11,182 nt of DNA. Source: Spirochaetaceae bacterium (GTDB lineage: Bacteria > Spirochaetota > Spirochaetia > DSM-27196 > PWMO01). The position numbers and the translations under genes were made by a program. The notes beneath the pieces were generated by a model that was given only the letters and a program-made list of their open reading frames with translations, did no database searches and was not told where the DNA came from. Numbering within the stretch: the stretch's first letter is position 1; each line of letters begins with the position of its first letter. The stretch is taken from contig PWMO01000378.1 in assembly GCA_003558175.1 (NCBI GenBank), forward strand, positions 1 through 11,182. The letters are read 5' to 3'. This document shows positions 1 through 9,814 of the stretch, piece by piece.

Positions 1-978
1 GAAGACGGCCAGGATGGTGACTTCAACCTCGCCGACGTGGTCGGGAATCTGACGCTGACAATTGACGACACCACTATCGGTGACGCGCCGTTCAACGTTA
101 CTCTGAGCGAAACGGGCGGGCTGGTAACGGCACCCCCCGATCCCGCGGGCAGCTACAGCTACGAGTGGTTTGTGCAGGGAGCGCTTGTATCCGACGAAAC
201 CAGCGCAACGCTCGATCTCGGCTCCGAGGGCGCAGACCTGAGCCCCGGAACCTACAACGTCAGCGTGATCGTGAGCGCAGATAATCACGAGGTCTCTGAA
301 TCAATCGTGGTAGTGGTGGTTGAGTCGGTTACCTACGAAATCGGCGACATGGGACCCGCCGGCGGCTGGATATTCTACATCGACGAGGATAATGATTTCG
401 ATTGGACGTATCTTGAAGTATGGATAGCTGATGAAGAAGATGAAGCCGGTGTCGTTGACCCCAGTAATACTTCCGACGGTCTCGAGTATAAGTGGAAGAT
501 CAACACCACGGCAACAGCGGGCACTTCCGTGGATATCGGCAGCGGCTACGAGAACACCTACAACGGGATGATTGGAGAGGAGCATCCAGCAGCGGAAGTA
601 GTGAGGAATGCTAACCACGGGGGGTATGACGACTGGTTTTTGCCGTCGAAGGACGAGCTTCAGAAAATCTGGTGGAATCTGCTTAGCGACCAGAGTGAGG
701 CTAACGAAGGCCGTGGTAATCGGCGAGATGATGCGGTCGGCGATTTTAGGACATTCACTTACTGGTCTTCGTCGGAGTTCGAGGACAATACCGTCGGCGC
801 GTGGAACCAGAACTTCACCAATGGCAATGTGATGGCCGTACTCAAGACAAACACTCGGCCTGTTCGGGCTGTCCGGGCTTTTTGGCCCTTTAGCTATTCA
901 ACTAGTATCCCGCAGTGGGGGTGCCGGGGGCGAAAGCCCCCGGCTGAAGCAGAAAACTGCGCAAGGGAAAATGTATGA
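1..978 (+). CDS. DUF1566/C-type-lectin-like exported protein, probable DGR target (5' partial)
   Basis: The frame is open from base 1, so the true start lies upstream; 325 codons are visible. Codons ~13-105 form a beta-sandwich-like module (T.DDTTIGD.PF.V...YEWF.QG...L.PGTY.VSVIV) shared with the two later lipoproteins. Codons ~108-294 are a DUF1566/Lcl C-terminal-type CLec domain: GDMGPAGGWIFYID, DDWFLPSKDELQKIW, YWSSSE, AWNQNF, and a closing RPVRAVRAF. DUF1566-type CLec folds are known ligand-display scaffolds of diversity-generating retroelements, and the last ~45 codons here look like a variable region. The next paralogue stops right after RAF, but this frame runs on for 31 codons through the GC-rich tail and hairpin and ends in an ATGA overlap with the next gene. 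It is probably a surface lipoprotein like its paralogue, though the signal peptide is outside the window. The ligand is unknown. Confidence 0.9.
   Translation, partial: EDGQDGDFNLADVVGNLTLTIDDTTIGDAPFNVTLSETGGLVTAPPDPAGSYSYEWFVQGALVSDETSATLDLGSEGADLSPGTYNVSVIVSADNHEVSESIVVVVVESVTYEIGDMGPAGGWIFYIDEDNDFDWTYLEVWIADEEDEAGVVDPSNTSDGLEYKWKINTTATAGTSVDIGSGYENTYNGMIGEEHPAAEVVRNANHGGYDDWFLPSKDELQKIWWNLLSDQSEANEGRGNRRDDAVGDFRTFTYWSSSEFEDNTVGAWNQNFTNGNVMAVLKTNTRPVRAVRAFWPFSYSTSIPQWGCRGRKPPAEAENCARENV
760..900 (+). other. Putative DGR variable region (VR) with homing (IMH-like) 3' segment
   Basis: The codons from 760 spell YWSSSE, a hypervariable-looking run, AWNQNF, T-NGN, and then K-N--RPVRAVRAF, the layout of CLec-type DGR variable regions. 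Codons at 778, 784, 790, 793, 796, 817, 835 and 841 all end in C with varied first two bases. That is what adenine-directed mutagenesis of AAC codons in a template repeat produces. The sequence from about 856 to 900 is GC-rich and invariant-looking, like an initiation-of-mutagenic-homing site. The boundaries are approximate because the template repeat is not in the window. No reverse transcriptase or accessory Avd gene is visible here. Confidence 0.72.
923..944 (+). repeat. Perfect 9-bp hairpin with GAAA tetraloop (DGR target-site hairpin)
   Basis: The arms GCCGGGGGC (923-931) and GCCCCCGGC (936-944) pair perfectly around a GAAA loop (932-935). DGR target sites are known to carry a short GC-rich hairpin or cruciform with a GRNA tetraloop just after the homing site, needed for efficient retrohoming. 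Position, stem length and loop all fit. No T-run follows, and the hairpin is inside an open frame, so an intrinsic terminator is less likely. Confidence 0.78.
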
Positions 979-3196: not shown

Positions 3197-3209
3197 GGGG
3201 CCGAGGGTG

Positions 3210-3680
3210 ATGCAAAGCTTGCGCGGTCCGGTTCTGCTGCCGCTTCTGTTGGCGCTGCTGCCGTTTCTGGCAACGGTCGTGGCCTCCTGCGGCAACGTTC
3301 TGACCGAGATCGGCGCTGCGGTGCGTTCAGAGCCGTGCCGTGAGCGGGTGCAGCTCATCATAACGGACGACACCGTGGGCGACACACCATTTGAGGTCAC
3401 GCTCAACCTCACTCCAGCAGACGGGTCTCTGGCGTTGCGCGCAGAGGTAGAGCCCGCCGAGCCTGGTCCCGGCGCATGGTATGAGTACCGTTGGTTTCTG
3501 CAGGGCGAGTCGCTCGGGGGGCCGTCGGCAGACGGCGTCTCGAAAACCGGTGATACTCTGAAACTGGGAGCCGGAGGGCTCAAGCTTGACCCGGGCACCT
3601 ACACGTTCAGCGTCATCGTTGCGACCGCCTCACACGAGGCCTCCGCTGGTGCGCGCGTTACCCTCCCCGACTGCCACTGA
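3210..3680 (+). CDS. Short lipoprotein consisting of the shared beta-module only
   Basis: This is a 156-residue predicted lipoprotein with hydrophobic residues 8-25 and lipobox VASC (Cys27). The body is the module of the two CLec proteins: LIITDDTVGDTPFEVTLNL, YEYRWFLQGESLG, LKLDPGTYTFSVIVATASHEA. It ends at LPDCH, just where the DUF1566 domain starts in its relatives, so it is a stand-alone version of the module. Unlike its relatives it has one Cys before the module (SEPCRE) and one after it (PDCH), which could form a clasping disulfide. It starts 13 nt after the beta-barrel gene, with AAGGGG and GAGGG purine runs upstream; an in-frame GTG one codon earlier is also possible. No DUF1566 remnant is visible after its stop. 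Confidence 0.82.
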   Translation: MQSLRGPVLLPLLLALLPFLATVVASCGNVLTEIGAAVRSEPCRERVQLIITDDTVGDTPFEVTLNLTPADGSLALRAEVEPAEPGPGAWYEYRWFLQGESLGGPSADGVSKTGDTLKLGAGGLKLDPGTYTFSVIVATASHEASAGARVTLPDCH

Positions 3681-5353: not shown

Positions 5354-5841
5354 GAGCAAAAACGCCCGCCTGAAGCGGCCTAGGCTGATAGACCGCTCAG
5401 GCAGGAAACGTGGCGCTCCGCTTCGCGGAGCGCCATAGGCCACGGTTGCAGTCGGGTGAGCCCTGCGATTTACCTCGCCACGAGTGCGCCGCTGCTGTTC
5501 TGCGTGCGCCGGATTTGGCTCTACCACAACCCAACAGATACTGTCTCGCAATTTCCGTTCCAGCAGCCTGCATTTTGACCCTGTCACGCCAATTCAGCTG
5601 CAAAATCGCCGCCCGCATCGCCGATTGATCGCTGCCGAACCCGGTATATCCACGTTCAGCCGGCGCTCTGCGCCTGATCTGGCACTGAAACCGTCTGTTC
5701 CGGCTGCAGCGGGCTCAGAGATGGCAACGGAGACGGCGCGGCAAACCACGGACGATCAGAACGCCACGTATCGTAGCGGCACCCGACATGCAAAACGGGA
5801 CTGCGGCCCGCAGTTCGCACCTCAGCAAGCAGAATGCATGC
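5354..5841. other. Gene-poor region between the HD-GYP remnant and the histidine kinase
   Basis: Open frames of up to 133 codons occur on both strands. None has a family motif, signal peptide or ribosome-binding site that supports it. Their composition (Arg-, Ser- and Cys-rich, no hydrophobic core pattern) looks like chance translation of GC-rich DNA. Given the HD-GYP tail at one edge, this may be decayed or deleted former coding sequence. I see no RNA gene or insertion-sequence ends. Confidence 0.5.
5411..5435. repeat. Perfect inverted repeat / hairpin in the gene-poor region
   Basis: TGGCGCTCCGC pairs with GCGGAGCGCCA around a 3-nt TTC loop (11 bp), or as 10 bp with a 5-nt loop. No T-run follows on either strand. 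It could be a REP-like dispersed element, or a remnant of the event that removed the HD-GYP 5' end. It occurs once in the window. Confidence 0.7.
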
Positions 5842-8013: not shown

Positions 8014-8036
8014 ACGATTCAAGAATCGTTGTTTTA
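8014..8036 (+). terminator. Probable intrinsic terminator after the histidine kinase
   Basis: ACGATTC and GAATCGT form a short stem around AA, followed by a T-rich TGTTTTA. It lies 28 nt after the kinase stop. The stem is short and AT-containing, and the T-rich tail serves only the plus strand. The last bases are the stop codon of the converging gene. Confidence 0.55.
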
Positions 8037-8462
8037 CTGGATCGCATCCACGACGCTGACGGTAACGGAACCTTCGTAGTCACCGGCGAGCAGGTATTCA
8101 AGGCCGCCCTCGCTTCCCTCGGCGCTCGCATCGACCGTGAGTGTCCAGGTGCTGGTCTTACCGGGCAGCATGGCGCCTGCAACCGAAGCATCGAACTGCG
8201 CGTCGCCGGCGAGTCCGGTGGTGTCAACATCGATGTCGTAATCGAAGTTCGCCAGAACGTCGAAGTCTGCAGTGCCGGAAGCTTCACCCGGGCCGCTGAT
8301 CGTGATATCGACCGTGCCGGCGTTCGAGATCGCCGCGTACCTGGCCACGGTGATGTTTACCTGGATCGTTTCGGAAGTGTTCCCGCCGATTGGGCCCGCC
8401 ATAACCGGCATTGCAAACAGAATCAGTGCCAGTGCCATCAGTACAAAACTCATTTTCTTCAT
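8034..8462 (-). CDS. Small secreted beta-rich protein, paralogue of the neighbouring gene
   Basis: This 142-residue protein has a signal peptide: MKKMS start, hydrophobic residues ~5-18, probable cut after VMA near residue 22. The mature part is Gly/Thr/Asp-rich with strand-like repeats (ETIQVNITVARYAAI, ADFDVLANFDYDIDV, TSTWTLTVDA, YLLAGDYEGSVTVSVVDA). The pattern [S/D]ETI-V-ITV--Y at the start and LAG-YE--[V/L]TVSVV at the end is shared with the gene upstream. It resembles small secreted or fimbria-like beta-sandwich proteins, but no named family is recognised. AGGAG lies 8 nt before the ATG. It may be co-transcribed from the sigma-54 promoter upstream of its paralogue, or it may have its own promoter in the 174-bp gap. 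Confidence 0.85.
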   Translation of the reverse strand: MKKMSFVLMALALILFAMPVMAGPIGGNTSETIQVNITVARYAAISNAGTVDITISGPGEASGTADFDVLANFDYDIDVDTTGLAGDAQFDASVAGAMLPGKTSTWTLTVDASAEGSEGGLEYLLAGDYEGSVTVSVVDAIQ

Positions 8463-8636: not shown

Positions 8637-9170
8637 CTACTGCTCGACAACGCTGACCGTCAGTGTGTCTTCGTACGCACCGGCAAGTGCCAGCTCTAAG
8701 TCGCCCGCGTAGTCCTGAAACTGCGACTTGACGAGCAGATTGTAAGTCTGCGTATTCCCCGGGTTCGATCCATCCACTGTGAGAGGGTTCGTATTCCCGA
8801 CGTCGTTGAACCATGCCCGCGGCGCGTCGTTGCCAGTACCGGTGCGCACTTGTACGTCGTAGTAGATCCGCTCCGTGCCTCCGTCTCGTACTGCAAACGG
8901 CAGATACTCTTCAGCCTGCGGACCCCGGTTCTGCGACTGGATTTCCAGTGCGTACGGGAAGTTCGCGAGAATGGTGAAGTTCGTCTGCACGTCGCCGTCT
9001 TCGGTGTCGATCAACGACAGACTCACCGAGTCGTTCAGCGTGATGTCTACATACTTCTCCACAGTGATGGTGACGTTGATTGTCTCGTCATCATAGCTGC
9101 TTGCCAGCAGGATAGCAGCCGGGAGAACCAGCAGCAGAAAGCTTACCAGTATGACATTTTTTACTTTCAT
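8637..9170 (-). CDS. Secreted beta-rich protein, first gene of the pair
   Basis: This 177-residue protein starts MKVKNVILV. The ATG at 9170 is chosen because AAGGAAGG precedes it by ~9 nt and the signal peptide follows directly; the longer frame to 9419 crosses the predicted promoter and would hide the signal. Hydrophobic residues ~6-22 precede a likely cut near LLA-SS (~24). The mature protein has strand-like segments (ETINVTITVEKYVDITL, TNFTILANFPYALEI, IYYDVQVRTG, QTYNLLVKSQF) and ends AGAYEDTLTVSVVEQ. It is homologous to the next gene at both ends but has a longer middle. No cysteine, lipobox or catalytic motif is visible. Function is unknown; a secreted or surface structural protein is likely. 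Confidence 0.85.
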   Translation of the reverse strand: MKVKNVILVSFLLLVLPAAILLASSYDDETINVTITVEKYVDITLNDSVSLSLIDTEDGDVQTNFTILANFPYALEIQSQNRGPQAEEYLPFAVRDGGTERIYYDVQVRTGTGNDAPRAWFNDVGNTNPLTVDGSNPGNTQTYNLLVKSQFQDYAGDLELALAGAYEDTLTVSVVEQ

Positions 9171-9318
9171 GCCATCCAACCTTCCTTTTTGGGTGACTCT
9201 CGGTGCACCCAACTGATGTTTTGCGAAGCGTGCGTAAGAGCGGTTGCCCGCCCCGCCGCTCGTCCCTTCACGGCAACGCACGTTCGCGGTGGCCTCAACG
9301 AAGCCATGCCCGCTATAG

Positions 9319-9334
9319 TGCAACGGCCGTGCCA
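9319..9334 (-). promoter_or_regulatory. Sigma-54 (-24/-12) promoter for the secreted-protein pair
   Basis: Minus-strand TGGCACGGCCGTTGCA is a perfect match to TGGCACG-N4-TTGCA, preceded by T. It predicts a start near 9308 and a leader of ~138 nt before the ATG at 9170. Such promoters need an NtrC-type activator, and one is encoded ~600 bp away on the other strand. Confidence 0.8.
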
Positions 9335-9814
9335 AACAACCGTACCGGTCCAGATTTTTCGCTGCATTTTCTGTTGCGTCCGTGCTTCGGAACCGCAGCA
9401 CCGGCGTGAGCAACTCCATATTTAGCGGTAGTGCAATACGTTACACCGGACGGATACCGGATTGCGCCGGCGCGTAGGGAAAGCAAGAAGATCCGTCCAG
9501 GTGGTGCGCGGCGCTCCCGTGCCGGCGTGCTTCCGGTGTCGGGGCAGGCGACGCCAACTATCCAAATGCGCGCCGCTTGAGCGGATTGACAGCCGGCACG
9601 CGCGCGCAATGGCGATCTGAGCGCCTGACGAGCGCAAGGCGCAGAATGGGAGCCGGCGCGTTACCGACTTGCATTTTGCTATTCGGCTGCTTTGTCATGC
9701 CGTCGGAGGGTGACCAGACGGCCGAAATTCCGACCGGAGTTGACCTTCAGGAGAGGACTTAAGTTCTTTCCAATCAATCTTTTACCCAAAATAGGCGCAC
9801 CAGGAAGCCAGTTA
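9335..9814. other. Divergent intergenic region between the two sigma-54 promoters
   Basis: No supported gene is seen. Short frames (for example 61 codons at 9577 on the plus strand) lack ribosome-binding sites or family motifs. Lying between two divergent -24/-12 promoters, this ~480-bp stretch is the expected place for activator-binding (enhancer) sites, but I could not identify a repeated dyad with confidence. Confidence 0.45.

Follow-up and report, generated by a model that had tools for sequence, protein, structure and literature searches.

A probable DGR target site, likelier a remnant than an active one, closing an Lcl_C-type gene of a Spirochaetaceae bacterium

The 3′ end of the first gene, a surface-protein gene, in the 11,182-nucleotide stretch of DNA analysed here (the window) is very probably, by descent, the target site of an Lcl_C (DUF1566)-type bacterial diversity-generating retroelement (DGR). 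It carries a C-terminal domain of the variable-protein type, an IMH-like segment shared with a DGR template (that of a relative, G014) and a hairpin; no near-repeat template was found in its own genome, which is 76.6% complete. The original prediction of a DGR-type target is supported, since the IMH-like segment, a linker and the hairpin are common to the G014 DGR locus and to two Avd-bearing sites, in G022 and G041. Its suggestion that the target is active fared less well: RT, Avd and template were not found in the genome, comparison with a proxy template gives a weak adenine bias, and gene 1 has lost its usual stop codon. Present activity is therefore doubtful. The site is more likely orphaned or remote, with a remnant favoured over an active target, and it is probably either a remnant or served by machinery missing from the assembly.

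The window is the entire contig C148 of a 2.77 Mb assembly in 550 contigs. Gene 1 (positions 1–978, + strand) is open at its 5′ end, where the contig breaks, so nothing upstream of it can be read. A Pfam profile search placed PF07603 (Lcl_C, DUF1566) at its C-terminus (586–876, model positions 26–117 of 117, E = 9.3e-12), and the domain profile also matches the solved C-terminal domain of Legionella Lcl (PDB 8q4e, E = 7.9e-14), which its authors describe as C-type-lectin-like (PMC11162425). The C-type-lectin-type C-terminus originally proposed for gene 1 is thus borne out at the level of profiles. By the same measure the two domains belong to one family, although Legionella Lcl, unlike gene 1, is a collagen-like adhesin (PMC11162425). 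DUF1566 is reported as the commonest DGR-target domain, within its own data in PMC4159848 and also in PMC6642488. At 53%, the G+C content of the Lcl_C part of gene 1 is below that of gene 2 (62%) and of the contig (61%). Used as a query against genome and viral contigs, the gene 1 protein gave no relative; phages and plasmids gave no match, and no near-identical protein was present among the matches listed (the best 120 of 2169).

We searched 46 genomes of the order, the source genome included; Lcl_C was present in 37 and some RVT_1 in 15. One of them, G014, has a DGR locus (L074, on G014:C55) with an Lcl_C target, a linker, a 10-bp hairpin with a GATA loop, Avd, a template and an RT. The template is adenine-rich with many AAC codons. 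The RT is 416 aa long, was found by the RVT_1 search at E = 8.5e-16 and has IGNLTSQ and YVDD motifs, which we take to be DGR-like. The Avd of this locus matches PF22296 at E = 1.6e-9, just under the cut-off, and NF033474 at E = 9e-9, below the cut-off. Since this Avd is read in two frames, and since the variable region differs from its own template at 15 of 28 adenines and at 7 of 54 other bases, the G014 DGR may itself be ageing. The window and the G014 locus share the Lcl_C target, IMH-like segment, linker and hairpin; they differ in that G014 adds Avd (in two frames), a template and an RT, and has a GATA loop and a TAG stop after RAF. Two further sites have the same chain of segment, linker and hairpin. 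In G041 (L218, G041:C253, 10164–10960) the hairpin is followed by an Avd with one internal stop and a cut template matching over 78 bp only, and in G022 (L219, G022:C72, 12367–13130) by part of an Avd. Searches with RVT_1 and with the G014 RT found no RT in either genome, and both loci are partial DGRs.

In the window, the IMH-like segment GTTCGGGCTGTCCGGGCTTTT lies at 862–882 (+ strand). The G014 template matches its first 16 bases (862–877) exactly, and the G041 target matches it in full. Behind it, at 883–907 (+ strand), stands an A/T-rich linker (GGCCCTTTAGCTATTCAACTA...) that is eroded when set against the consensus elsewhere, which is roughly three 8-base units of AACTATTT. By a strict rule the window linker amounts to one unit. 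That alone proves nothing, because one unit was also seen in 4/16 viral DGRs (RT-selected loci, 16/17 of which gave a template/variable pair); none of the 16 had two or more. From the IMH-like segment onwards the window is 83% identical to the G022 site over 87 bp (862–948) and 79% identical to the G041 site (862–944). The codon directly after RAF, at 883–885, is TGG in place of the usual stop, and the frame of gene 1 continues for about 30 codons beyond its usual end, across the hairpin, to a TGA at 976–978, where the end of gene 1 and the start (ATG) of gene 2 overlap by 4 bases. Either a genuine change or an assembly error would account for this TGG.

The hairpin, GCCGGGGGC-GAAA-GCCCCCGGC, was located at 923–944 (+ strand), 40 bp past the IMH-like segment, in agreement with the perfect 9-bp GAAA hairpin originally placed about 40 bp beyond a homing-like segment. 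Its stem is all G/C, and the stem arm GCCGGGGGC is common to the window, G022 and G041, with the loops GAAA, GCTA and GGTA in the three. Guo 2011 gave DGR hairpins as G/C-rich stems of 7–10 bp with a GRNA loop, 4–34 bp behind the variable region, and found the hairpin/cruciform needed for efficient homing in BPP-1 (PMC3240598). Like the BPP-1 target, the window has a G/C-rich stem within the 7–10 bp range and a GAAA loop behind the variable region; unlike it, the host gene is a chromosomal Lcl_C gene, the spacing of 40 bp falls outside 4–34 bp, and RT, Avd and template were not found in the genome (PMC3240598).

The variable-region-like segment is placed at 760–882 (+ strand), with an approximate 5′ limit because no template was found for it. 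Over 798–827, 29 of 30 bases equal the G014 template, and the sole change falls on a template A. Over 798–882, with the G014 template as a proxy, mismatches occur at 11/28 adenines and at 9/54 other bases (P = 0.025). The corresponding figures are 15/28 and 3/54 for the G041 target, 17/28 and 4/54 for the G022 target, and 11/28 and 13/53 for gene 2, which has no hairpin. The adenine bias of the gene 1 segment, measured against a proxy template only, is weak and near that of gene 2. Nor did codon content bear out the many NNC codons first taken as a DGR hallmark: codons ending in C make up 13 of 29 in 772–858 and 97 of 257 in the preceding part of the gene (Fisher P = 0.29), and for NNY codons the counts are 17/29 and 152/257. 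We rejected NNC codons as a hallmark here, as they show no excess over the gene 1 background.

We searched the source genome for the rest of a DGR. At 76.6% completeness it contains no RVT_1 and no match to the G014 RT, and a bAvd match is absent from the genome and from the window, so that neither the RT nor the Avd of a complete DGR was found. No template was found either, by blast of 640–980 at E up to 1, by IMH match or with the G014 template. The blast returned six short matches besides the query itself. The best of these, in C408, was rejected as a template because it sits in a GGGCTGTTC tandem; it is also the only other place in the genome that matches the IMH with one mismatch, and seven more match with two. 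Within the window, tblastn gave no RT and the pair search no adenine-biased template/variable pair, which confirms that neither RT nor template is in the window. A near-repeat differing at A beside an RT and an Avd gene, proposed as a check, was so far not found in the genome, nor was any RT or template, whose absence had been named as a refutation; since that genome is only 76.6% complete, action in trans keeps some probability. Five congeners, two of them more than 90% complete, held no RVT_1, no G014-type RT, no Avd and no match to the G014 template, and no match to 640–980 at E = 0.01. Elsewhere in the order, DGR-type RT matches were incomplete, with one fragment in G010 and pieces of RT in G013. 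On G013:C335 (L161) lies a different DGR, with an RT piece and a template pair of another protein type; the pair spans 126 bp, and 19 of its 25 mismatches fall at T when read on the + strand (at A on the other). An Lcl_C gene with a nearby RT in G007 was set aside, having no template pair and an RT only 30% identical to that of G014, and two RTs in G006, from the congener family, look on reading of the ORFs like the group II intron type.

These searches bear on the strongest alternative, that a full DGR core, missed by the assembly or carried on another replicon, diversifies gene 1 in trans. The incomplete assembly, the contig end just upstream and the perfect hairpin are all compatible with this, and remote targets have been reported for T. 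denticola (PMC4891356) and for cyanobacteria (PMC7517822). We nevertheless consider it rather unlikely, given that RT is absent from the five congeners, that the adenine bias is weak, and that the stop codon is lost and the linker eroded. T. denticola isolates offer a precedent for a remnant as well, with leftover DGR targets in isolates that lack RT and TR (PMC4891356). Those targets and the window have in common spirochaete-type lipoprotein targets and remote or leftover targets standing apart from a core; the passages of that paper at hand mention neither hairpins nor DUF1566, and the window target was recognised from its linker and hairpin in place of a template.

In a working system, RT with Avd would copy the template RNA with errors at adenines, and the cDNA would replace the variable region as far as the IMH; a hairpin or cruciform behind the IMH would raise the efficiency of the site, a role that we infer here from BPP-1. 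At the present locus only the target appears to stand, with a second Lcl_C gene in the place that Avd holds in the relatives, and the DGR core would have been lost or never have been present. If so, the site would be either a remnant or a dispersed remote target.

A second alternative is that gene 1 is an ordinary Lcl_C adhesin gene, with a chance hairpin and no DGR history. Lcl_C is common in the order (37/46 genomes), mostly with no such hairpin behind it, and gene 2 resembles the G014 template too though it is no target. However, IMH, linker and hairpin are shared en bloc with DGR loci, and such hairpins are in excess behind Lcl_C domains: a GNNA hairpin (one mismatch allowed, within 130 bp) follows 6 of the order's 82 Lcl_C ends, the window counted, whereas random segments drawn from these loci have one in 86 of 20000 cases. 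The 82 ends take in the window and the G014 template, and are what remains of 90 hits after removal of seven that end before model position 106 and one with less than 60 bp downstream. The six hairpins start at positions 34–50. In the five besides the window the loops are GGTA, GATA, GCTA, GTGA and GGCA, so the loop type is GNNA and not strictly GNRA; the GNRA loop first described holds for the window (GAAA). Apart from 923–944, no hairpin on the window's + strand combines a GNRA loop with a perfect stem of at least 6 bp, and a 9-bp stem with a GRNA loop arose in 0 of 2000 dinucleotide shuffles of 877–1000 and in 0 of 200 shuffles of the entire window. The stem pattern occurs once in the source genome and five times in the 46 genomes of the order; three occurrences lie behind Lcl_C domains and the other two are both in G011. 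We therefore regard a chance hairpin as very improbable. Least probable of all is that the hairpin is a transcription terminator, repeat element or RNA regulator between genes 1 and 2: the fold ahead of gene 2 is strong (883–970 as single-stranded DNA, z = −3.71, equalled in 1 of 200 shuffles), but no T run follows the hairpin, a terminator scan lists only 862–878 and not 923–944, the two genes overlap, and the stem pattern is single-copy in the genome.

Gene 2 (975–2579, + strand) encodes a second Lcl_C protein according to the ORF list and Pfam, with no such hairpin behind it. It starts 30 bp past the gene 1 hairpin, in the place held by Avd in G014, G022 and G041. Counted from the start of gene 1, the two genes are 90% identical for 60 bases, 72–75% for the next 120 and mostly 45–75% thereafter. 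In a tree in which 32 of 77 inner branches are weak, gene 2 groups with the congeners G002 and G004 (99/80), and gene 1 is nearest to G024, from another family (99/85), within a wider group that includes congener G005 and G006 of the same family. Gain of the gene 1 domain from elsewhere and an old duplication would both fit this pattern. A protein carrying two Lcl_C domains is encoded elsewhere in the bin, on L008 (G000:C75); the tree places it with long-branch sequences from other families, and its presence in the bin may be due to contamination. Further along the window, a short ORF at 3202–3680 is similar to the Ig-like part of both genes (DDTVGDTPFEVTL), which suggests a third related copy. 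A second strong perfect hairpin, TGGCGCTCCG-CTTCG-CGGAGCGCCA, lies in an intergenic gap at 5411–5435, and two adjacent secreted-looking proteins of similar layout, neither matching Pfam, are encoded on the − strand at 8034–8462 and 8637–9419.

The linker is not confined to the order. A pattern derived from the order's own Lcl_C sites, where at least two linker units occur behind 8 of 82 Lcl_C ends, found 50 stretches (L168–L217) in named genomes. Three of these, L182, L186 and L198, apparently equal G016:C301, G037:C306 and G022:C72 and are not independent of the order's site set. The RAF codons are fixed by the pattern itself, so conservation can be judged only at its free positions; these are A in 46/50 and T in 45/50, with a T just past the pattern in 49/50. 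The stop after RAF at these pattern-selected sites is TAA in 39 and TAG in 11, and TGG in none. By a simple rule, a WSS-like motif lies upstream in 45/50; among the remaining five, three have no motif, one stretch is truncated and one has a DWSSSE missed by the rule. Eight of the 50 have a DGR-type RT in the stretch examined. Five have template/variable pairs, with 21/22, 19/20, 21/24, 25/25 and 18/18 mismatches at adenine, and at a sixth site, L192, 5 of 7 mismatches fall at adenine. Most gave no strong long-stem hairpin like that of the window in the same scan, and many, on inspection, have shorter stems, for example ACCGC-GAA-GCGGT. The Lcl_C-type ends with this linker are labelled Treponema, other spirochaetes, Bacteroidetes, Nitrosomonas, Proteobacteria, Chlorobium, Atribacterota and others; viral contigs searched by pattern gave no match. 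The letters ACTATTTAACTATTT were absent from the literature searched, which is a weak test of novelty, and PMC8144416 yielded no passage on hairpin, DUF1566 or Spirochaet.

The linker may mark a lineage of bacterial DGRs or serve in recognition, and its occurrence in several phyla is the part of this work most worth following. One speculative reading, to which we give little credence at present, is that Lcl_C DGR targets form a portable cassette (variable region, IMH, a linker of about three AACTATTT-like units and a GNNA hairpin) that moves without the core and is served in trans. Were this true, the linker would be an extra recognition element common to several phyla, cassettes would pass between genes and genomes, and the window would hold a cassette joined to a spirochaete lipoprotein-type gene, in which the lost stop leads to translation across its own hairpin into the next gene. 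More generally, a DGR target can be recognised in a fragmentary genome lacking RT and template, from the chain of IMH, linker and hairpin, and such recognition would permit orphan and remote DGR targets to be counted.
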